From: Chromera velia
Lineage: Eukaryota; Sar; Chromeraceae
NCBI GenBank assembly: GCA_018398765.1
Contig: JAHBMJ010000661.1
Location: forward strand, 20,001-40,000
Direction: 5' to 3'
DNA: 20,000 nucleotides
Part shown: one piece after another, positions 4,284-19,444 of the stretch
Layout: the number at the start of each line of letters is the position of its first letter
Numbering within the stretch: the first letter of the stretch is position 1
The notes under the pieces: generated by a model
What the model was told of the DNA's origin: nothing
What the model saw: only the letters and a program-made list of their open reading frames with translations
The model's database searches: none
Made by a program: the position numbers and the translations under genes

Positions 4284-6970
4284 TTACATTGGTCCCCCTC
4301 TAGTGACTTTGTGCGCGCCAGAATCTTCCATTCCCATGCCTCGAGATGGGGTGGCACTGCCAGTGCTACCTGAACCCACAACGGCACTTCCAGAAGAGGC
4401 GAGGAGATGAGATGAAGCGCTCTCTCTGTGGAGTTGCGTTGGATTCTGCTGACTGTGTTCGCGGAGAATCAATGCGGAGGTGTTGGAGCCAGCGAGGTCA
4501 GGATTTAATAACCAGTTCCAGCTGCCTGGAACTCTTCGAGGTCGCGAGAGTCCATTCGCTCCAGAGGGGAAAGGGGGGGGCGGGACTGAGAATGAAAAGA
4601 GGGCGTTAGGAGAGAGAGGCACACGCTCATCGGGACTCCAGGGAGACAGAGACACCTCAGGATACGGAGACAGCCCATACTCCGAGGTAGGGTTGTCGAC
4701 GCTCGCAGCAGATGCCGCAGCAAGCACGAGGTCCTCGGCTTGGAGGTCCTGCCCATGATCCGCCACCCTCTGCCCTGCCACAGAGATCTCCGCAGACGCA
4801 CCCGTTTCATTCGCCCCCCCCACCACTTCCCCGCCACACTGCTCATCATCTTCCTCATTCTCCTCCCCCTCCCCAACCTTTCGCACCTTTGGGAGCTTCT
4901 CACCATCTCTCTCTTGTGACTCTTCCTTCTTGAGAGGGCGTTTATCCCTCGGCAGCAGAGTGGAGGCGTCTTCCTGTTTGGCAGCACTCAGACGAGATTG
5001 CCAGTCAGCGTCGTGAGGGTATCCACCCTTCGGCAAGCCTCTCCACGCAGGGTCCGGGAAGTGACCACCCGACTCGGCATTGGAAGTCTCCTCATCCAGG
5101 TCTCCTGACAGTTGTGTGGGGGGGGCTAGGGGAGAGGGACTGGCTGCTGCTGCTGCGGCTGGTGGGTTGGGACGTCCCAGGTTGACGGGATTGACTGCAC
5201 TGTGAGGGTGAGGATGGCCTCCTGCCTGTGCCTCGGCAAAGCTCTGCATCAGGGCACTTTGTACTGCAGGGTCTTCTTCGATTTCCATCTCGGAGGAGGT
5301 CTCTGCCGGGACAGAAACATGAGGCTGTGCAGCAGCTGTAGGAGGTTGGTTGGCGTCGGACTCCACGACACTGCAGAAAATCTGACAAGCCTTTTTACTG
5401 GCTTCGATGAGCCGGCTGTGGGATGGGAAGCCCCCGGGGCAGGGGACGACTGTTGCATCGTCAAATTCGTAAAAAGCCCTCCCTCGCTCGCAAAGGGCTG
5501 TGTGGTGCCCTGTGCGGATCCCAGTGTCTCGACCTGCATACAGGGACACTCCATGATTGACTGAGCTACCTGGCAAAGTTAGCAGAGTCACGCTGAGAGC
5601 TAGAGAGAGACATTTCAGAAGGAAAATAAAACGACAACGACACCCCTTGCAAAGAGACTACCTCCCATCATACTTCACGAATCTTTTCAGAGCTCAGCAA
5701 AAAGTTAACAGGCAGTCTGGACACGACACGTTCCAGATACGGGAGTCAGACAAACTCAACCACCCGGCTCACCATCATGCTCGGCAATCGCACTAATCCG
5801 CAACATCTTCTCGCCGAACTTCAGCATCATGTCTGGGGGGATGTTGACGGGGGTGGGGTCAAAAGAACCATGGTGGTCTCTTCCCGCCTCCCCCTCCACC
5901 TCGACGATCCTTGGATGGCTAGATCGAGGGATCTCAAATATCACTGTCGACAGGCATGTGAGCTTCTTGCTAGGGCAGTCCCCCCCGTCGACTCCCCCCA
6001 GCTGCTCAAGGGACCCAGTGAGAGACTGTCCAGGTCTGACGTGGATGAGCAGGACGTCGTAGCGCTTTTGGGTCTTCAAACTTTCTTGATAGAAGGCCCT
6101 CGCCATTAACGTCCCTTCCTCACGCCCTGTCGACGGCACGTTGAACTGTCTGGAGACAAACTGCATCCAAGAGGGAGATCGACAGGCAGACAGATTTTTA
6201 AAGAAGCAAAAAAGACCTCCGAAGCAATTGTCTATTGGCTTGCCCCGCTATCCCTAGACTGCAGTTGTTCTTCAAAGCCGCATCAGTAGAAGATATATAG
6301 ACATCTCGATGCTTGCAGAAAGAGGCTGCATGCATGTATCTGATTGGAAGGCTTGGAAGGGCAAAAAAACAAAAAAAAAACGACTTCAAGCTCTTAAGCC
6401 ATTGAAGTACTGCATTCCTTCATTTTTGTGGCTGCAGCAAACTCACTGAAGGGATCGACTGACCAGAGATGACAGGATGTCAGAGACGAACTCGTCCACG
6501 CCCCTCTGATCCGTTGTCCTCCATCCCTCTCTCTGCTGGAAATTCCAGAGTCCCCAAACAGCGTCAATCAATTTGAAGACGCTCACCTGTCCCCTTCTCT
6601 TGCCTCCGAGCTGGCCGCAGACCTCACAGAGAACAGACGCAAGCCGGTACCTGCGTCGGTTGGAGTCCCGTGTGTGGGACTTGAGCAGGTTCTGCAGGCA
6701 CCTTGGGAATGCCGCCACGCTCACGAGCCCTTGCACAGTCACGTGACAGGAGCAAGACATCACCCCTGGCTCTCTGGCAATGCCGATTGGCAGTTTCACG
6801 CGAGTTCCCCTCCCTGCAGCTCCCGTTCCACCAGAGGACTGCGGGGCCCTCCCAGAGGGAAACGACTGGCTTGCTCTCACGTCGTTCAGTGCATCCGTCA
6901 CAAAAGCGCTCCCCAGCTCTTCGACTTTGTACACCATCAGGTATACAGAGTCCATCCCGCTGTTCAATCT
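4284..6970 (-). other. Module 4: USP domain with intact triad (USP-B), UIM and C-terminal tail
   Basis: Exon 13 (6464-6970) encodes the end of USP-A, a Gly/Ser-rich linker and the USP-B Cys box MSCSCHVTVQGLVSVAAF. Measured back from the conserved Gln, the nucleophile position is the first Cys (codon 6752-6754, residue about 1294). The same exon ends with the QDA-type box TTDQRGVDEFVSDILSSL. Exon 14 (5773-6160) has YDVLLIHVRPGQ, matching the family 'vLiiHlkRf' strand. Exon 15 begins RDTGIRTGHHTALCERG (His, codon 5505-5507) and FYEFDDATVVP (Asp, codon 5460-5462). Cys, His and Asp are therefore all present, although the Asn of the Cys box is missing and the zinc-finger cysteines are not evident. 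The tail has EEDPAVQSALMQSFAE (about 5229-5290), fitting the ubiquitin-interacting motif pattern A-L-x-x-S-x-x-E after acidic residues. A basic cluster (KRPLKK, KLPKVRKV) looks like a bipartite nuclear signal. The remaining roughly 290 residues are Pro/Ser/Ala-rich and probably disordered. Confidence 0.68.
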
Positions 6971-9900
6971 CTAAAGGGACGCGACACCGTCCGCAAGAGG
7001 ATGCGCTCCGTCCGGATCGACCTCCCACCAACCGGCCCACTGCCCCTCCTCCCGGCGGATAACTCGGTACTCGCAATCCGTGGGAGACGGTCCTGCAAAA
7101 GAGCACACGTACGGTTAAAGGAACTTTGTTTCGCAGTGCTGGCAGGAAAATACAGTAACACTGGTAGCCCGTAACTTGTACTGAATTCCCTCATTAGACA
7201 AAGTAGAATCCAATTTCAGTGGGTGGCCTCGTGCTTTGAGGACCCATATGCGAAAGTGTGATTTGATCGAGCCAGCCAGACTATGCACAGCACGAGACAA
7301 ATCTCAATCTTGACCAACCGTTGTGTACAATGGCGCTCTGCAGTCGAAGGTCGTACAGCTCAAAAAGTGTCTCGTGTTCCGGAATCGGCGCTGGCGCCGT
7401 GGACTTGTGCCCTCGGCTGCCCCGAAATCGAGCAACGTGACAAACAAGGGCCTCTCCAAGCCGGAGACGGTCCATCATGACACTGCACCTTTTGGATCGT
7501 CGTAATTTATCCAGAGGTTCGCCGTCAGAGATTCGGGAGGGGCGCTCTCCCTGCACAGTCGCCCACTGGCTGCAGGTGAGGAACCAAGTGCCCCAGGGCT
7601 GCAGGTGAGGAACAAAGTGCCCCAGGGCTGCAGGTGAGGAACAAAGTGCCCCAGGGCTGCAGGTGAGGAACCAAGTGCCCCAGGGCTGCAGGATTGATTT
7701 CATCTCTCCCTTGTACCCTAGTCCGGAAAAGAGTCCGATGCTTTTTCCTTGAACCTTCTCGAGCACCTCGGGTCCCTGCATACAACCAACATGCATCCAT
7801 AAACAATTTGCACGAAGAGAGGATTCACATGAAAAACTTTACCGAGCTCGGCGTTCACAAAGCACTTCTTTCTGAAGTATGTCGTCCTTGCTCTTGTACA
7901 CTGGAGCTCGAAAGAAAATTTGAGGCGGTCACAGTGTGCAGTCTCCCCTCTCACTATGTCATTCTTGTATGGCTGTCGTGCATTCCTGGCAGGCCTTCGT
8001 CGCTTTCCTTCTTGCACGCATGACAAGGAGCTAAGGAGCAAGCGAGTCCCCATATGTAAGACGTTTCACGCTTTGTTCACAGTGACTGTCCGATTTGAAA
8101 CTTTTCACACTGACCAGAAGAGAGAGGATGACCTCAAGAAGGTGTGCAGCGTCCGCCTGGTTCAAGTTCCGGAAGGAAAGCGTTGGTTGCACCGCAATGA
8201 GAATACTCTCAAGGGTCTGATCGACCTCGGCGTCGATCATCTCTGCGCCTTCCAGGTAGTCGAGCAGCCTGCGGAGGTGAAAGTGCAGCCCGGTGGTCTG
8301 GCCTGCAGACAGTCTTCGGACTTCGTCTGAGACGCCGCGAATTCCAAAGAGGAGCTGCACTACTGCGATGATGCCTGAGTGGTTCCTCCCCGGTGTTTGC
8401 GGAATGTTCCGGGGCCTGACGGGCAGGTCAGGTCCTGCAGCAGCAGACAATGGGCAGAGGGAAAGGAAGCGGTGACGCACAGCAGATGCAAAGCGGATCG
8501 AGATGCAAACGCCAGGAGACTCCGAAAAGCAGAGGAAGGAAACGAAGGATTTCGGATGTCGGATGTGTGCTTCCTTATCCTTCTCTCCCTCCTGATCTCG
8601 CATGAACCCCCAAGAGAGATGCACACCCCATGCAAACCAGATGCCAGTCACGCATGATGCTGACGCACCAGAGTGCTCGTGCTCCGCTGGCTGCCAGGAT
8701 CTGAGAGCCTTGAGAAAGGTCGACAGGGTCAGGGGCTGTCCCTTCACAAGGAGTTTGGAGACGAGGGCCTCGAGACAGGGCATGTTCGAACTCAGGCTCC
8801 GGACACTGGCCATGTCCTCTGCCAGCAACCTCTGCACCGATTTTTTGGTCGTCTCTCCTCTCTTCTCATGCTGCTCTTGAAGCTGCTGCAGAGCTTTACC
8901 CACCTGCAATTGATCGAAACATGTTCAAAAACTGTTTTGCTCATAATGTTGACGCAGGCTGAATGTGACGGGTCGGTTTAAGAAAACAGAAATGAGATGA
9001 GAAACTTTAAGGAGGAAGAAAATCTCCGCAAGCGAATTCTCCCACCACAGAGTGCCCCCCCCTCCCTGCTGACCGGGGTCGAGGGGTCCGCCCCCTTCAC
9101 GGATCTTGCCACATCGTCCCCGAGCACGTTGATCAGCTTCTCAATGACCCAAGAGCACTTTCCTTCGTTGATTCGAATGCCTGGGAACAGGGTCTGATTT
9201 GCGATTCCTCCTGCCTTCTTCAAAGCCCGATGCTCATCCCGATCGTAGCGTTTCCAGAGGCCTTCCGCGCTGCGGCTCTGGTTGCTCTTGACGTCGTCAG
9301 TAGTGCCCAGACGGACCTGTGCGACGTGCAAGGTCTTCTTCTGCTCTGCCAAGTGCTTGAGGAAAGTGGGGAGCTCTTTCATGATCTCGTCTTCGAGGTT
9401 CGGCTCGAGGTTTGTGAGGAACTCCTCCACACGCTTGTGCTGGAGATCTTTCTTCTTCCCCTGAGAGAGAGGCTTGAGCATCTTCTTCAGAACTCTGTCC
9501 ATGAGCTCGTCAGAGAAGCCCAGCTTCAGGGGCATGCATCCGATTCGTTGACGGACAATGGCATGTGCACAGGAAGCTCAAATGACCGACGAAGACAAAA
9601 GTGTCCGCAAGAGGCCAGGATGAAAGCGAGACAAGAAACCAGAGATGGAGGGATTCAATGAGGGCCGGATGAGAATGGCTGAGAGAATCACAACCGATGG
9701 AAAGAAAAGACGAGAAGATAAATTGAAGCGAAGAAAGGAAGAAAAGGGATGCCAAACGAGGAGCGCCGCAGCAATGGAACACGACTGACTCTGGGCAGAT
9801 GTGCTCATCAAAGATCCCCAAGTCGATCCTCTCAGAGAGGCGTCCCCCATTCTCCCCTGCTGATCTAGACTGAGCTCGGGTTTGCGCATGCGGGGTGCTG

Positions 9901-12900
9901 TCAACAGTGTTCAGAATCACAGTGACTGCCTTGTCTCTCGCGTCCTTTACCATGGCATCTCTGGAGCGAATCTTCTTGTGCACCTCCTCTGTGATTTCCT
10001 GCCTGTTCACGCATGCAAAGCACGGAAGGAAGGAAGGAAGGAAGGAAGGAAGGAAGGGAAGGAAGGAAGGAAGCAAGGAAGCAGGGAAGGGGGGCGTCTC
10101 TTCGTTTGGCAGCAAGGGTGCTTGGCAAGAAGCTGGAAAGGCGGGGAGGGGCACATCTCTCCTTTTAGCAGCATGGATGCGCGGCAAGAGGGAAGCCTTG
10201 CGGGAAAAAGTGACTGTAACTTTTGAGCAATGCGTGGAACAAAAATCGACCTCCAGGTGTGTGACTCGATCACAGGATTTCCTATGAAAATGGTAAAGTG
10301 TGGACAGAGACAGACCAGGGTGACTGCGAGAAAAAATACAGCCGAATGAAACCATCTCAGCCTTCTGGCTTCACTCACTCGAGGAAAGGTCGGCAGTGCT
10401 TGTCGGGACATTTGGACAGGGAGGAGTCGCCCTCCACGAGGCACTTTTTGAGGGCGGGGAAGATAGGGCCCAACTGGTCGTACATGGCACTGAAGTCCTG
10501 CTTCCTGAAGGGACCTCGGTGCTTGATGATAGCGTCGATGGCCTTGTTGAAGGTGCCATGGTTGCGGAACTCGCCTGTCGCTTCGTTGACACACTTCGTC
10601 ATGGTGTTCCGTGCGGAAACATCCTCAAGAACTCCCTTCAGGTCGTGCTTGACCACCTTGGCCACCCTGTCCTGACACGCTTGCTTGTACGCAATCATAT
10701 CCGTGTTCCCCTGGAGGAGGGTCTTCTGGGAGGAGGGCTCAAGAAGCTCTCGCAGCTTCGTTAGACGGGCGACGTTCCGCTCGTCGTCGACGCCGTCGGC
10801 AAGAGAAGACGCGTCTTCCATCTCCTCGATCGAGAGCAGCTCTCGCTCCCGCCCTTGGGCCTCCGTCAAATCTCCTTCAGCAAGTGCACCGATGCCCTTG
10901 AGGGTGGCGCAGCAAAGGAGGGCAAAAAGAGCTGAAGTCCCGGATTTCTCCAGCACCTGCACAAACAGAAGACACCCAAAAAAGGGTTTTGGAGCAGTGG
11001 GATGAGAAGACCATGAGCAAAACAAAAATAGCAACAGCGTTGTTCCCCGGCGAGCCCTTCCATTTTTTGGCAGCCTTTGAAAGACACACAGAGAGAAGCC
11101 GACGGCGGAGGCGGGAATTGACCAAGTCATTACAGGAAACAATGAAGGCACAAACCTTGGGTAGGAAGCAGAAAAGGCAACGGCAAGGTGTGACTTGGAA
11201 TACCTCCACAATTCTAAGCAACGCGTTTTAGTCTCATGGGGGGATGTTCGTGAGAAAACTGGGCACGGGCACCACTGTGCAAGCTATTGATCCTGACAAA
11301 CCTTCGCAAATTCCACCTCTGCTGTAGCCTCAGACCCTGAGACCCTCGCCAGCTCAGTGAGGACGATCCGCCGATTTTTGAGCAGCTGAAAACCGGCATC
11401 CAATGACAGGGATCTGAATGGAACGAGGTTCTCCAGCTCCACGCGCGAGAGAAAGGAAGAGGCAGAGGATGACCGTCTAGGGGGATGCGGCCCGACTGCT
11501 TCGTCTTGTGCTTCTTCATCCTCTGAATACTCCGTTGCCTCCGAATCCAAGTCCACTCCCGTCTCCTGAGCCTGCACTCTGAACGCCCTGTTGAGGCCGT
11601 GGAAGAACTGGTCCTTCTCCTCCTCCTTCAATTCCCAGAATTCTACGTTCTCACTGCAAGCAGCAAAGGAGCAGCAAAATCCATTTCTTTCATCCCGCAG
11701 AACTCTTCAAAAGCTAGACTCTCGTGACGAGGCCGGAAATATGCAACGTTTCGCTCACACTGTGGGGCAGCGCACACAAATTCCATTGCTTACACACCCC
11801 AAGCCAGACTGAGTGTCATCTTTCTGCCGTTAAAAAAGGAGGGGGGCCACCCACCCGTCTGCCTAACTGACTGACTGACCGGATCTGCGCAAAGAATTCC
11901 AGAGCGTTGTTCGCATCCACGCGATCGAACGAGTTGAGCCTTGCCGATGGGTAGATCTCGCTGTGGATCATCGTTGCGGTTCTGCGGGTGCCCTTCTCGT
12001 CCAGGAGGCCGTAGATCTTCAGGTGCCTGGACACATCATCTCCCGTCTGACGGTGCAGCGACAATGCAGCCTCAGCGCTCTGCAATAGAACAAGATGCAT
12101 GGGCAGGCAGAAGGGTCAGGTGCATGGGAGACTGGGAAAAATCAGATACACCGCGACCAAGGCGGGCTACATTTTTCGGGGAGGAATGGAATGGGAAGAA
12201 AAAGAAGTCGACAGCCGGAGGGAAACCTCGTTGCTACAGAGCGGCTGCAAAGTCTGGAAACGAGGATCGAGCGGAGGATTTCAGTGGAGAGGATTCTGCA
12301 CAGCAAACGCCCATGCAGTACACACATGCACAAACAGTGCCTGCATGGGGAGAGAGGGATGGGGGAGCTTGAGGAAGGAGAGCTGCCCCAACACCCAACT
12401 TCCTGCCCCAACGCCCAACTTCCTGCCCCAACACCCAGCTTCCTGCCCCAACGCCCAACTTCCTGCCCCAACACCCAACTTCCTGCCCCAACACCCAACT
12501 TCCTGCCCCAACACCTAACTTCGGAGAGGGAAGGAGAAGAAGAGAGTGTTGGAGGGCAGGCAGAGAGAGACCGGCTTTTGGAAGAGGCTTCACCCAGGCT
12601 CATCCGCACAGAGGACACGGTACAGCCAGGGATAAAGATGACGGACCTTGAATGTTTCGATAGCCCTCTGCCTGTGAAGACGATTCTGGTCAGTCACGCC
12701 GGGCGTGTCGGTGATGCGGCAGGGCAGCTGCAGGGGAAGATTGAGGACGAAGCTCTTCTTCTTTACGATGAACGGGAACATCTTGCGGATCTTGTTGATG
12801 GTCTTCGCATCGTGATTGAAGATAGACAGAAGGCCCTCTCGGGGAACTTGGCTGAAGATGTGGTCCTTGACCCACTCCGTGTACTTGTCAGGACTTCGCC

Positions 12901-14118
12901 GAGCCTCCGGATCTGTACAGGGGTCTGCGGTCCAGATTCTGGCAGCGTGGGCGAGGATGTTCAGGGCTTCTTTTCCGCTCTTCACCTTCGCATAAACTGC
13001 ACACAGTAGAGAGACGGAAGAGATTTTTGAATGAGAGCTCGGAGGCATTTTTCATGACGGGCGAACCACTAGGGGGAAAAAAAAGCCAAGGCTTTCGAAA
13101 AAGAGCTGGCAAGAGTCAGCAAAACAGGCGAAGGGGTGGCTGGGAAACTCAGCAGAGAAAAACGGCACTTCAAGGCATCGCAGGGGTTCACTGCAAGTGA
13201 GGAAAAAGGGGGGAACGTAACACGCGAAACTGACCCGCGACGGTGGTCTTCTCGCCCAAGATGGGTCGGACTGCTGGGTTGCTTAGAGTGTCCTCAAGAT
13301 TTTTTTGGAGCCTCTTCTCCTCAAATTCATTGTCGCAATCTTTGAGCGACTTGGACATGTTCAGGATGTCCTCAAGGTTCTTGGAATCCTCAATCTCAAC
13401 CTGCGGGAAGGGCAAAGAAAGGGCGGAGGAAGGGCCGCGTGTAGATGAGATCTAGCAAGTGGAAGGAAGTTTGAAGGGGAACCAGATGGCAGTCAGGCAA
13501 GCTGTCGCGCTGAGACACATTGAAAAAACAGACGAAGAGACATCAAAACAGTGTCACGGTGAGGGACAAAAAATAAGTTCCTCTTGTTCTGTCCTTTCTG
13601 CCAAGTCGGAACCTCATTCCTCCCCTTTCACCACCAGATGCAAGCTATACGGACGGCAGAGACAACTAAAACAGAGAAAAAACGCAGCTGGCAGTGACCA
13701 GATCTGACTAGAGACACACTGACTGTTGCACTCTGAGACAGAGACGCGAACTGTTCGTTTCACAGGGAACCCGCTGTCCCTTCGAACTGACCGAGAAGGA
13801 TACCAGCGCACCGCCAGGCTCAGCAGTGACGTCATTATTTGTCGTCCTTTCCGGCGCATCACCTTCGGGGACGCATTCAAGCCTCCCGCTGGTCTGTGAT
13901 CCTGGCAGGGCAGAGACGGCATCTGCATCCAGGAAAACGACCCGGTCGTGTTCAGCCCTCCGTCTAAATCCCTCTTCTGCCGCTCTCTTGACAATCAGAT
14001 CCAACGTGTTCTCGTCCAGGGTGTTCTCACAAATCTTGTTGTACACCCAACTTTTCCCTACGTTTCGAGGCCCACCGAACGCTGTGGTCCCCACGGCGCG
14101 GCTCGATGCCGTGCCCAT
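4284..14118 (-). CDS. Large fusion protein: dynamin-like GTPase + pseudo-USP + USP + UIM (about 15 exons)
   Basis: Reconstructed on the minus strand from the ATG at 14116-14118 to a TAA at 4284-4286. Exons in transcript order: 13792-14118, 13235-13400, 12647-12996, 11880-12079, 11302-11653, 10379-10956, 9790-10002, 9101-9494, 8669-8903, 8115-8434, 7319-7775, 7022-7092, 6464-6970, 5773-6160, 4284-5533. All introns are GT-AG; six donors read GTCAGT and eleven of fourteen acceptors end in GCAG. Reading phase is preserved at every junction and the total (5,808 nt) is a multiple of three, giving about 1,935 residues. Modules in order: P-loop GTPase (about 1-465), helical region (about 466-938), pseudo-USP (about 950-1240), USP with intact Cys/His/Asp (about 1285-1560), then a disordered tail with a UIM. 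The weakest point is exon 12/13, where a TAG at 6971-6973 forces either a 51-nt intron or termination at about 1,237 residues. The 7/8 junction (acceptor GGACAG) is also less certain. The product likely acts in ubiquitin-linked regulation, but its substrate is unknown. Confidence 0.7.
6971..7021 (-). other. Candidate 51-nt intron (exitron) carrying an in-frame TAG
   Basis: The frame of exon 12 runs straight into TAG (6971-6973) and then continues in the same frame into SVYLMVYKVEE, which is needed to finish USP-A. The only frame-preserving escape I find is a 51-nt intron with donor GAG|GTCGAT and acceptor CCCTTTAG. It would remove VDPDGAHPLADGV, which itself looks like conserved USP sequence. 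All other introns here are 197-567 nt, and none of the others ends in TTTAG. A nonsense mutation, a real gene end or a sequence error is therefore at least as likely. Confidence 0.3.
7022..8434 (-). other. Module 3: inactive USP (peptidase C19) domain, USP-A
   Basis: Exons 10-12 show the USP landmarks in order. The Cys box is NHSGIIAVVQLLF (residues about 956-968), which aligns with the family N-T-C-Y-x-N-x-x-x-Q: Asn and Gln are kept, but the catalytic Cys is Ser (codon 8376-8378). The QQDAHEF-type box is LNQADAAHLLEVILSLL at the end of exon 10. A strand like the family 'LP..L..H..RF' follows as LVCHVARF in exon 11. The His box, split by an intron, is VHNG then PSPTDCEYRVI, where GHY has become CEY, so the catalytic His is Glu. 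GQWAGWWEVDPDG corresponds to the W.FDD motif. The last beta strand, SVYLMVYKVEE, lies beyond the in-frame TAG at 6971-6973, in exon 13. With Cys and His both replaced, hydrolase activity is not expected; ubiquitin binding is possible. Confidence 0.7.
7568..7693. repeat. 29-bp minisatellite inside exon 11
   Basis: Four complete 29-bp units (7568, 7597, 7626, 7655) plus a 10-base partial copy, nearly identical; the one variable site I noted is AACCAAG versus AACAAAG. The array lies in the reading frame of USP-A. Because 29 is not a multiple of three, successive units are read in different frames, and none contains a stop. Each unit has GCAG|GTGAGG on the plus strand (donor-like) and CTCACCTGCAG on the minus strand (acceptor-like). 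Part of exon 11 could therefore be spliced out, for example from a GTACAAG donor at about 7729 to the last unit, which also keeps frame. Confidence 0.85.
8669..10956 (-). other. Module 2: helical middle region (exons 6-9)
   Basis: Exons 6-9 (10379-10956, 9790-10002, 9101-9494, 8669-8903) encode about 470 residues rich in Lys, Glu, Leu and Gln, with heptad-like stretches such as VEEFLTNLEPNLEDEIMKEL and VGKALQQLQEQHEKRG. This is consistent with the helical stalk or coiled coil that usually follows the GTPase domain in dynamin-like proteins. No enzymatic motif is recognised. At the 3' end of exon 6 the frame reads into a TGA, but a consensus donor (GTGAGT at 10378-10373) lies just before it and joins in phase 2 to exon 7. 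Exon 7 to exon 8 uses donor GTCAGT and acceptor GGACAG, again in phase 2. Confidence 0.5.
10024..10090. repeat. GGAA microsatellite in intron 6
   Basis: About 16 GGAA units, with single-base variants toward the right end, lie within the intron between exons 6 and 7 (10003-10378). The immediate neighbours at about 10100-10200 contain two diverged copies of a longer segment (CTTGGCAAGA.. / GCGGCAAGA..), suggesting a local duplication. Open frames through the tract in either strand are repeat artefacts. Confidence 0.85.
11302..14118 (-). other. Module 1: P-loop GTPase region (exons 1-5, residues about 1-465)
   Basis: Exon 1 encodes GGPRNVGKSW, a Walker A/G1 motif (GPRNVGKS, residues 16-23). Exon 3 ends with the G3-type motif ITDTPGVTDQNR (DTPG, residues about 261-264) followed by an amphipathic helix. 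The long gap between G1 and G3 (about 240 residues) and the LPCRITDTPG context resemble SLIP-GC (NUGGC)-type members of the dynamin superfamily more than small GTPases; that is a judgement from memory of the families. No clear N/TKxD (G4) motif is visible. MIHSEIYP in exon 4 may occupy that strand, so nucleotide specificity is uncertain. Exon 5 carries an acidic and serine-rich insert. The N-terminus MGTASS fits an N-myristoylation pattern (Gly2, Ser6), which would allow membrane attachment. Confidence 0.55.
12382..12521. repeat. 20-bp minisatellite in intron 3 (7 copies)
   Basis: Seven contiguous 20-base units (consensus CCTGCCCCAACACCCAACTT) differ only at one or two sites, such as ACACCC versus ACGCCC. 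They sit inside the intron between exons 4 and 3 (12080-12646). On the transcript strand the unit is G-rich (AAGTTGGGTGTTGGGGCAGG), with repeated GGG/GGGG runs that could form G-quadruplexes in the nascent RNA or coding-strand DNA. Confidence 0.9.
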
Positions 14119-15719: not shown

Positions 15720-16800
15720 ACTCATGAGGGAGGAAGGCTAGGAAGCAGGGAAGGAAGCATGAAGCAAATAAAAGAGCAACGAACTAGGTGAGGAAGGAGG
15801 GGGCGTGATGGAGGCAGGTCCTGGTAAGGAGACAGGGAGGGTGATCGAGAGGAAGGGAGGGATGAACTTCCGAGGAAGGAAGGAAGGAAGGAAGGAAGGA
15901 AGGAAGGAAGGAAGGAAGAAAGGAAGGAAGGAAGGAAGGAAAGAAGGAAGGAAGGAAGGAAGGAAGGATGGAAGAAAGGAGGAAAGGGGGGAAAGGACGA
16001 AGATGGAAGAGACGAATAGAGGGAGGGAAGGAGGAAGGGAAGGAGGGAGGGAGAAAGGTTAGGAACCGGAAGGAATAAAGCAGGGAGGAAAGAAGAAATC
16101 AAGGAAAGAAAGTCTCAGTAGGAAAGAAGTAGGTAGATAAACAAGTACCAAGCAAATGAGCAAGCAAACAAAAACTGGAGAAAGGACAGAAAAAAGAAAT
16201 AGTGGAAAAACATGTAGAAAGAGAGGAGGCAGGCGGAAAGTGGAAGAATGAAGAAATAAAACAGGGATCAAAGACAGGAAGAAGGGAAGAAAGAAAGTGC
16301 AGAAACAAAGAAGAGAGGAAAGAAGGACGGAAGGACGAAAGCACAAAGAATAAAAAAAGGGAGGAAAGAAAAATTTAAAAAAAAGAAAGAAAGAAAGAAT
16401 GAAAGACATTAAGTAAGAAAGAAAGAGCGAGGAAGTCTGTCAGCAAGCGAGTCAGCTAGTGAAAGAGGCATTGAGTAAGTGGATATTGCTTGGTGTCTGT
16501 GTGAGTGAGCAAGCGGGTTAGTGTGTAAGTGACTGAGTGAGTGAATGAGTGAGTGAGCGACTGAACGAGTGAGCGAAAGAGCAGAGGGAGGGAGGAATTC
16601 CGAAGGAAGCTGGGATGAAAGCAGGCAGGGAAGGAGGCAGGTAGGGAGGGTCAGTAGAAAAGAGTGAGGAGGTGAGTGGATGAGCGAAGAAGTGAGTAAG
16701 TCAGTAAGTCAGGGGAGGAAGGCAAGGATGAAGTGATGGAGAAAGGGATTAAGGAAGAGAGCGCGTGAGCGAGTGAGTAAGTGAGCGAGAAGAGTCTTTT
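15720..16800. repeat. About 1.1 kb purine-strand tract with GGAA and GAGT/GAGC repeats
   Basis: The plus strand is overwhelmingly purine. It contains a long GGAA array at 15874-15968 with GAAA and GATG interruptions, then degenerate GAAAGAAG and GGAGG units, and from about 16431 to 16800 a degenerate tetranucleotide region of GAGT, GAGC and AAGT units. Such homopurine tracts can form triplexes and are unstable. The apparent minus-strand proteins rich in Ser, Phe, Leu and Pro are translation of this simple sequence. Confidence 0.8.
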
Positions 16801-17677: not shown

Positions 17678-17722
17678 ATTACCCCCAAGAAGGCTTCCTA
17701 TGGTTGATCCGGAGCGGCCGTC

Positions 17723-17939
17723 AAAGCCCAGGTGCCGAAGGTGCCCGGCTGCTAAAGCCCGACCGCGCCGAAGGCGCAGGCCTGCCAAAGCCCAACCATG
17801 CTGAAGGCGCGGGCCTGTCAAAGCCTGACTGTGCCAAAGGCGCGGGCCTACCAAAGCCCGACCGCACTGAAGGCGCGGCCATGCCAAAGCCTGACTGTGC
17901 CGAAGGCGCAGGCCTACCAAAGCCTGACCGTGCCACCCC
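17723..17939. repeat. 33-bp minisatellite (about 6.6 copies)
   Basis: Units start with AAAGCC at 17723, 17754, 17787, 17820, 17853, 17886 and 17919. The first is 31 bases, the next five are 33 and the last is partial. The core is CCGAAGGCGC with CpG-type transitions (CG to TG/CA), as expected of ageing methylated repeats. Because 33 is a multiple of three, frames stay open on both strands; the plus frame would read PKPDxAEGAGL repeatedly. I regard this as a by-product of the repeat and not as a gene. Confidence 0.85.
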
Positions 17940-17954
17940 AAAGCCCACATGCAT

Positions 17955-18016
17955 GTGGTTTTTACAGTTATACGCATTAATTTGTGTGGCTTTTGCAGTT
18001 ATACGTATTAATACAT
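17955..18016. repeat. 31-bp tandem duplication
   Basis: Two copies of GTGG(T/C)TTTT(A/G)CAGTTATACG(C/T)ATTAAT lie 31 bases apart (starting at 17955 and 17986). They are flanked on both sides by ACATGCATGT-like palindromes (about 17948 and 18013). Confidence 0.7.
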
Positions 18017-18158
18017 GCATGTACAAAAGTGCAAAAGCTATCTAAAAAATGTCTTGGTCTTCTAGCTTGTCCGTTTCACTTTTGATGCGGAGCCTCTAAG
18101 AGAGGAAGGCAGATCTGATAGAGTGCTTCCTTCTTTCCAGTAAGCCACCGCGTTTTGT

Positions 18159-19079
18159 ATGTTTGTGCGTATTGAACAACTCACGTTTTGTGCAAATGAA
18201 TCAACAGGGAAGTACTTTGTATATCAGTCACTTGCAAAGGAGGATATTGACTATGCCTATGCAGTTGTATCCTTTTTAACCTTAGGGGAGGGAGAAGTCT
18301 TCTTCTCTAACTTTCTTCGAACTCCTTCGTACCCTTTGATTCCTCTGTGTGACATTGGCTGCCGTGTCTTGTTCAATGAAGAAGGTCGATATACTTGCCT
18401 TGAGAGAGATACAGGTGGGGAAGGCATAAAAATTCATTCTTTCCCTCTTTCACTTTACTTTCAAACATTAAAAATTTGAAGAAAGCTGACAGCCAGACAA
18501 AAAGAAAACGTTCGGAGACAGGGGCTGCAAGCTCTTACAAAAAGAGAGATGAAGAAGGAGCTGAAAGCAAGACGTCTTTCTGCTCACGCAGGTGGAGAGT
18601 TGAGCGAGGTTCGAAGGGCTATAGCCTTTGAAGTTTTCAATGAAAGCAGAGAATTATGGGCCCTGACGACAGAGTATAAGCCCGCGGTTGATGTGTATCC
18701 CTTCAAGTCAAAAGTTGGTGCACCAGCGCACGCAATCGTTTACGCCAGTGCACCTCCTACTGCAGCTTCTGATTCATCTACTAAATCTGTAACTGGGGAT
18801 GTTAGCCAATTAATTGAAGAAGCTGTGGAGGTGGAGGTTCGACGGTATGAAAGGCGTCAAGCAAGAGGACAAAAAGCGTAAGTAAAACGAAAAACGAAAG
18901 CAAAAGCAAAGGCTAAAGCAAAAAATAAGGCGAAAGCAAAGGCTACTTTGTTTGCCCGGGTGACGAGCGAATATAGTGGCAGCGAAGGTCCTGGAGGGGG
19001 GGCTACAGAGTCTGATGATGATGACGATGACTATCGCCCTGCTGCGCGCAGAGTCCATGGATCTAGAATTCCTAAATGA
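18159..19079 (+). pseudogene. Broken reading frame, possibly copia-type retroelement remnant
   Basis: One reading frame runs from an ATG at 18159 to TGA at 19077-19079 (306 codons). It is interrupted by TGA at 18477-18479 and TAA at 18879-18881; a further TAA lies just upstream at about 18139. The first part contains FLTLGEGEV and then PSYPLIPLCDIGCRVLFNEE, which resembles the segment before the integrase in Ty1/copia polyproteins ('LyvP.l..NLIS...L...G..v.F'). This match is from memory and weak. The second part is charged and helical (SQLIEEAVEVEVRRYERRQ). The third has an Ala-Lys repeat and an acidic run of six Asp. Persistence of frame across two stops suggests a formerly intact gene. It lies inside the inverted-repeat-bounded segment. 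Confidence 0.4.
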
Positions 19080-19257
19080 AGACTGACTAAGACTGACAGA
19101 TTCAAACTAATTAAAATCAATATTTTTTTGTTGTTGTTATTTTAAATATTTAAGTTGATTATAGCAGATACTATAAGAGAGTATTAAAATATTTTAAAAC
19201 TAAGTTAAACTAGATTAAATTATATTATAATATTTTTAAGCTACAATGGACTGGAGG

Positions 19258-19340
19258 GATATTCCATACTAGAAAGAATTAGCTTTCTGTCGCCAGAGCC
19301 TTGACGATATTGCATACTAGAAAGAATGAGCTTTCTATCG
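19258..19340. repeat. 48-bp-period tandem duplication with internal hairpins
   Basis: Two 35-base copies, 19258-19292 and 19306-19340, share GATATT(C/G)CATACTAGAAAG and then AAT(T/G)AGCTTTCT(G/A)TCG. Each copy contains the inverted pair AGAAAG ... CTTTCT, able to form a small hairpin. They lie near the right end of the presumed element. Confidence 0.75.
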
Positions 19341-19352
19341 TCAATTTGTAAC

Positions 19353-19392
19353 GTCAAAGCCCTGGTGCCGAAGGCGCCAGGCTGCCAAAGCC
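19353..19392. repeat. Seed copy of the 33-bp unit with a GC-rich hairpin
   Basis: This is essentially a single copy (with the start of a second) of the unit amplified at 17723-17939, in the same orientation. It includes CCTGGTGCC-GAA-GGCGCCAGG, a nine-base stem with one wobble pair and a three-base loop. Its position close to the right inverted repeat mirrors the array next to the left one. Confidence 0.6.
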
Positions 19393-19444
19393 TGGAGTTT
19401 AATTGACAGACCATAGGGTCATAGGAAGGCTTCTTGGGGGTAAT

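Follow-up and report, generated by a model that had tools for sequence, protein, structure and literature searches.

This locus raises the question of whether a single gene of Chromera velia joins a nucleotide-binding domain to ubiquitin-specific protease (USP) domains. The initial annotation had read a dynamin-like GTPase, two USP domains and a ubiquitin-interacting motif (UIM) as one spliced chain. We know of no P-loop dynamin-like NTPase joined to USP domains in one chain, and a search of the open-access literature found no paper on an NTPase-USP fusion as judged by titles and the starts of abstracts. In the window, that is, the whole analysed stretch of 20,000 nucleotides at C660:20001-40000, a gene of 14 exons was built by hand on the minus strand, running from an ATG at 14118 to a TAA at 4284:

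4284..14118, minus strand: whole gene, 14 exons; hand model compared with a colinear paralog
13792..14118, minus strand: exon 1, residues 1-109, with the P-loop; hand model
13235..13400, minus strand: exon 2, residues 110-165; both ends match the paralog in column and phase
12647..12996, minus strand: exon 3, residues 165-281, with DTPG; paralog match at E 1e-12
11880..12079, minus strand: exon 4, residues 282-348; hand model
11302..11653, minus strand: exon 5, acidic linker, residues 348-465; identical to the paralog at 23 of 113 positions
10379..10956, minus strand: exon 6, middle part, residues 466-658; paralog match at E 1e-13
9790..10002, minus strand: exon 7, residues 658-729; phase-2 donor as in the paralog, picked after the paralog was known
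9074..9494, minus strand: exon 8, residues 729-869; acceptor uncertain, alternative start at 9523
8669..8903, minus strand: exon 9, residues 870-948; hand model
8115..8434, minus strand: exon 10, start of USP1, residues 948-1054; hand model
7319..7775, minus strand: exon 11, core of USP1, residues 1055-1207; 29-nt tandem repeat inside, at 7561-7705
6464..7092, minus strand: exon 12, end of USP1 and start of USP2, residues 1207-1416; hand model and paralog match
5773..6160, minus strand: exon 13, USP2, residues 1417-1546; hand model
4284..5533, minus strand: exon 14, His box of USP2, UIM-type motif, low-complexity tail and stop; hand model and paralog match

All 13 introns have GT-AG ends, and their lengths range from 170 to 567 nt. 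The coding chain of 1,961 codons contains one internal in-frame stop, compared with about 72 (3.7% of codons) by base composition, and a GC3 of 0.66 in the exons next to a GC content of 0.50 in the introns gives a clear codon signal. A consistent splice phase links the P-loop (residues 16-23), DTPG (residues 261-264), two USP-like stretches and a UIM-type motif. The start, stop, motifs and phases of the single chain proposed earlier were confirmed, but the chain is not open, having a TAG at codon 1247. It also needs 14 exons and 13 junctions instead of the 14 junctions previously counted, a number from which we infer that the earlier model probably assumed a 51-nt intron at 7021-6971.

All 13 junctions were fixed before any relative was known, and intron 7 alone was later altered, at both ends. 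This intron (9789-9495), and chiefly its acceptor at 9494, is the least certain and weakest point of the gene model. Its former donor, GAGTCA/GTCGTG (the slash marks the splice site), was dropped for GA/GTCAGT, which has the phase of the paralog. An extra exon at 7900-7843 within USP1 was also dropped, since the resulting frame would be full of stops; exon 10 can be linked to 7775 in phase 0, and the paralog agrees with this. Since the 29-nt unit of the exon 11 repeat is not a multiple of three, the reading frame changes from one copy to the next; the paralog exon aligned with it is shorter at that place. Intron 3 carries a 20-nt tandem repeat (12383-12522), and (AAGG)n arrays are found at 10017-10090, within intron 6, and at 15870-15970.

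That the parts are linked in a single chain is supported by a paralog that has diverged but is colinear over most of the length and shares most intron positions. The genome searched comprised 177.8 Mb in 4040 contigs and was the only eukaryotic genome covered. With the N-terminal part of the window protein as query (nine candidates scored), six matches with E <= 0.1 were obtained, five of them the window itself and the sixth C1338:65096-65434 with 36% identity. Contig C1338 also has a weak match to the Pfam family UCH at 74101-74400 (E 8.5e-4), and tblastn of the whole window protein against C1338:61001-81000 gave colinear matches over residues 171-1618 in the numbering of the first gene model, in a list that includes chance matches at high E. 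The paralog model spans C1338:63854-76325 and has 14 exons encoding 1,783 amino acids without a stop. In a MAFFT alignment of the two proteins, 497 of the 1677 aligned positions are identical (29.6%). Eleven of the 13 intron positions fall in the same alignment column and all 13 have the same phase, introns 8 and 9 being out of column by 1 and 8, while random placement of 13 introns (2000 trials) gave a mean of 0.1 column matches and a maximum of 2. One reader built both gene models by hand, that of the paralog with the window phases in view, so this agreement is strong without being blind. Intron 4 of the paralog (2143 nt; L017 5080-6930) contains long minus-strand open stretches that by eye seem similar to a retroelement reverse transcriptase.

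A wrong joining of two adjacent genes, one for the NTPase and one for the tandem USPs, is highly improbable. It would suit the fact that no family with this order is known to us, but no gap between exons exceeds 567 nt, and order, strand and intron phases are kept in a paralog of such low identity. In this genome, the contigs with UCH matches (33 matches) and those with Dynamin_N matches (24) did not overlap among the scored candidates as judged by eye, and the window copy is itself absent from the 33 UCH matches among scored candidates. Judged from the gene models, the fusion of P-loop domain, middle part, two USP-like domains and UIM-type motif holds as gene anatomy, a real and unusual arrangement built from known domains. 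It points to a domain-joining event that predates the gene duplication in this alga. Our preferred reading of the whole, with a probability of roughly 55%, is one large protein in which a dynamin/SLIP-GC-like NTPase, a pseudo-USP1, a live USP2 and a tail with a UIM-type motif would perform assembly-gated deubiquitination.

The evidence for the two protease-like domains comes from Pfam, from profile searches against solved structures and from the following features:

6926..8434, minus strand: USP1, predicted pseudo-USP; UCH on this domain alone 14.0 bits, E 0.038, below cut-off; USP46 alignment
8376..8378, minus strand: Ser at the catalytic Cys position of USP1, residue 967; NHSGIIAVVQLLF, compared with RTSYAIAVVQMLF in the paralog
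7070..7072, minus strand: Glu at the catalytic His position of USP1, residue 1214; profile alignment to GHY of USP46 and alignment of the two copies
5349..6793, minus strand: USP2, likely active; UCH on this domain alone 19.2 bits, E 0.00099, below cut-off; profile matches to USP30 and USP21
6752..6754, minus strand: predicted catalytic Cys of USP2, residue 1320; printed alignment with TCFMNSLLQGL of USP30
5505..5507, minus strand: predicted catalytic His of USP2, residue 1555; stretch matched to Ubp8 and USP21, residue placed by eye

Over the tandem region of the window copy, UCH was found in two stretches (E 2.4e-6, 27.8 bits) and thus above the cut-off of 23.9, and in the paralog it was found in three stretches (E 4.2e-16, 59.8 bits); it was found in none of 14 control genomes, all of which are prokaryotic. 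On USP1 alone, the match covers residues 25-292 on profile positions 15-238. A profile of the tandem region built from the two sequences gave 27 PDB rows with E <= 1, of which 25 were USPs (best E 0.0019) and the others C protein (7s0r) and RRN11 (5n5y). With the USP1 profile alone, 11 of 11 rows with E <= 5 were USPs (best E 0.063). The USP2 profile alone gave 11 rows with E <= 1, comprising seven USPs, among them USP30 with the best E of 0.087 and USP21 at E 0.21, as well as two NEDD8 E1 chains, C protein and RRN11. Single-sequence phmmer searches of the PDB with two queries resulted in one match each (E 1.6 and 0.61), which were judged to be chance.

The claim of two USP proteases made in the initial annotation stands for the C19/USP fold (PF00443), with the tandem region above the UCH cut-off and PDB profile matches that are mostly USPs, and for the residues of USP2; it fails for the catalytic Cys and His of USP1, which neither copy has. 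Ser967 was located by eye on the Cys box and the alignment of the two copies, not by residue alignment to a solved USP, and the paralog has Ser at the Cys position and Ile at the His position. USP2 has its Cys, His and Asp (C1320, H1555 and an FDD box at residues 1569-1571, ending at 5457), the His and FDD having been assigned by eye on the USP motif, and the paralog keeps the same residues, with GHFMAIC...FFYFDD as the counterpart of the His and FDD boxes. In both copies, USP1 is predicted to be a pseudo-USP whose catalytic Cys and His have been lost. Given the Ser and Glu at these positions, only USP2 looks active, and it is likely to be an active deubiquitinase.

USP2 shares its Cys, His and FDD boxes with the peptidase C19/UCH (PF00443) proteins that were matched (USP25, USP30, USP46, USP21, USP12, Ubp8 and Ubp6), and a DA-x-x-hydrophobic thumb stretch of USP46 and USP30 is aligned with that of the USP domains here. 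Unlike in known USPs, these domains stand in tandem behind a P-loop NTPase, the first one is apparently dead, and they are very divergent, with about 31-34% identity even between the two paralogs. Pseudo-USPs are inactive USP-fold proteins. USP1 resembles them in having the fold signature without Cys and His, but differs in sharing a chain with an active-looking USP.

In the window copy, one codon interrupts the reading frame:

6971..6973, minus strand: in-frame TAG, codon 1247, toward the end of USP1; from the gene model

This stop comes after the His box of USP1 and before the last strand of the domain, where the USP1 profile can be aligned with USP46. At the same site, the paralog has coding sequence in one uninterrupted exon, with no stop and no intron. 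The window copy could be a member of the fusion family that has recently become a pseudogene or gives a truncated product, with translation ending in USP1 and no USP2-UIM part, an alternative that we take seriously and rate somewhat below even odds. Besides the TAG in a frame that is open in the paralog, it would account for the absence of an AG acceptor where exon 8 of the paralog starts, which means that a downstream acceptor has to be assumed in the window copy. However, this stop is the only one in the whole chain, a frameshift is not required, and the identity to the paralog is 30.3% from the stop to the end of USP2 compared with 26.7-33.7% before it (NTPase, middle part and USP1). Downstream of the TAG, the two copies differ at codon positions 1, 2 and 3 by 0.525, 0.475 and 0.646, compared with 0.704, 0.745 and 0.755 for random pairing, and on either side of the TAG the differences at positions 1 and 2 are below those of random pairing. 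The similar identity and these codon differences indicate that the 3' part was constrained for most of the time since the duplication. The TAG would then be recent, or it could stem from an assembly error, so that the window copy may have been misassembled, may be truncated or may have become a pseudogene recently. If the TAG is real and used, the product of this copy would end after the NTPase, the middle part and most of USP1, and the copy on C1338 would be the working one.

A different solution would be that the 51-nt intron mentioned above splices the TAG out of the mRNA, leaving the gene intact. The segment has GT...AG ends, phase 0 and a length that is a multiple of three. This is nevertheless distinctly unlikely, as the other introns of the window copy are at least 170 nt long, the shortest intron of the paralog has 113 nt, the same place in the paralog is coding and intronless, and the stretch suits the USP fold between His box and last strand.

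The motifs of the N-terminal domain are as follows:

14050..14073, minus strand: Walker A / G1 motif GPRNVGKS; from the sequence, GERGIGKST in the paralog
12698..12709, minus strand: G3 motif DTPG; from the sequence, DPPG in the paralog

Members of the dynamin superfamily have the motifs G1 GxxxxGK[ST], G3 DxxG and G4 [NT]KxD. Both copies have G1 and G3 in this form, and a G4 motif of this form was not seen by eye after G3 in either copy. Walker A starts at residue 16 in the window copy, with DxPG 245 residues further on; the corresponding figures for the paralog are 12 and 249, and a G2-like TRRTTAFP is present there. Another locus of the same genome, L030 (C597:3491-4525), has a Dynamin_N match above the cut-off (E 3.3e-8), a G1-G3 spacing of 231 and a TKVD motif. 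Alignment of the two-sequence NTPase profile to L030 with hhalign gave a P-value of 5e-4 and a probability of 31%, covering the N-terminal 94 columns only.

In the paralog, Dynamin_N remained below the cut-off (E 0.0031, 18.0 bits, cut-off 27), as did all 20 Pfam families listed for its NTPase, including AAA_16 at E 0.00048, and an NCBIfam scan of this domain gave nothing close to a cut-off. For the window copy, no Dynamin_N match was listed, and MMR_HSR1 (E 0.0023) was below the cut-off. Both copies are absent from the Dynamin_N list of the genome (24 matches with E <= 0.1; 33 candidates scored). Since Dynamin_N has matches in 14 of 14 control genomes, it is a broad rather than a narrow test. 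A profile of NTPase and middle part against the PDB gave nine rows, five with ribosomal L17 on the middle part (best E 0.0052, judged to be chance), three with Era at the P-loop (best E 0.35) and one with mS35, and among viral contigs 252 and 117 pattern matches contained no relatives. Proteins of the dynamin superfamily also have an assembling helical stalk; exon 6 was predicted to be all-helical, but the AlphaFold models of this single exon (mean pLDDT 43.8) and of a second one (mean pLDDT 41.5) were both too poor to use.

Accordingly, the domain is named a P-loop NTPase of dynamin/SLIP-GC-like layout, and its dynamin-like identity is only suggestive. The P-loop, the DxPG and a spacing near that of L030 speak for the dynamin-like GTPase originally proposed, but NKxD was not seen and the Pfam scores are below cut-off. 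We take the domain to resemble SLIP-GC/NUGGC. Like these and the dynamin superfamily, it has a P-loop followed by DxPG about 245 residues on, a comparison made via Dynamin_N and L030 only; it differs in the NKxD that was not seen, in falling below the Pfam cut-off and in the attached USP domains. That the domain belongs to a different type of P-loop NTPase (AAA, STAND or septin-like) is rather unlikely. The better score of AAA_16 than of Dynamin_N in the paralog, both below cut-off, and the NKxD that was not seen would agree with it, whereas the DxPG, the G2-like motif of the paralog, the spacing of 245-249 compared with 231 in L030 and the pairwise hhalign result argue for the dynamin-like layout, and the AAA matches are confined to the Walker A stretch.

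In the C-terminal tail, two short motifs were identified:

5232..5279, minus strand: UIM-type motif EEDPAVQSALMQSFAE, residues 1631-1646; full pattern in 0 of 20,000 tail shuffles
4926..4943, minus strand: basic, NLS-like KRPLKK, aligned with KRPRLE in the tail of the paralog

The UIM consensus consists of an acidic patch followed by Phi-x-x-A-L-x-x-S-x-x-E, and EEDPAVQSALMQSFAE fits this consensus. The full pattern occurred in 1 of 3,000 shuffles of the whole protein. On its own, the short core occurred in 314 of 20,000 shuffled tails and 177 of 3,000 shuffled whole proteins. The UIM previously reported here is present as a pattern in consistent phase, but Pfam gave no match on the 60 residues around it and the motif is missing from the paralog. 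KRPLKK and KRPRLE may represent a nuclear signal.

The proposed mechanism goes beyond the observed domain order, intron conservation and catalytic residues lost and kept in assuming nucleotide hydrolysis, oligomerisation, ubiquitin binding and cleavage and a nuclear site. The protein would consist of an N-terminal P-loop NTPase, a middle part of about 480 residues, a dead USP1, a USP2 keeping Cys, His and Asp, and a low-complexity tail with a UIM-type motif. Nucleotide binding would lead to assembly on a target, and the assembly would gather many pseudo-USP1 and UIM surfaces able to hold ubiquitin or ubiquitin chains. USP2 would cleave the ubiquitin held there, with assembly concentrating or gating deubiquitination locally. 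Should both halves be functional, nucleotide state would be coupled in cis to the removal of ubiquitin, and the dead-live USP pair would be a clear example of a pseudoenzyme retained as a receptor. That the family forms a chromerid-specific class of nucleotide-gated deubiquitinases, with an assembling NTPase and a dead-USP ubiquitin receptor beside a live USP, perhaps nuclear and perhaps acting in cell defence or genome surveillance, is a tentative and rather doubtful extension.

Two further elements were observed in the neighbourhood of the gene. The region 17678-19444 looks like a DNA transposon, with 25-nt terminal inverted repeats (96%) flanking 1,717 nt with plus-strand frames, two of which were scanned and had no Pfam match over the cut-off. 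At the edge of the window, positions 2-292 of the minus strand encode a fragment of a PLOD glycosyltransferase domain (PF25342, E 1.7e-7) belonging to a neighbouring gene that is cut by the window edge.
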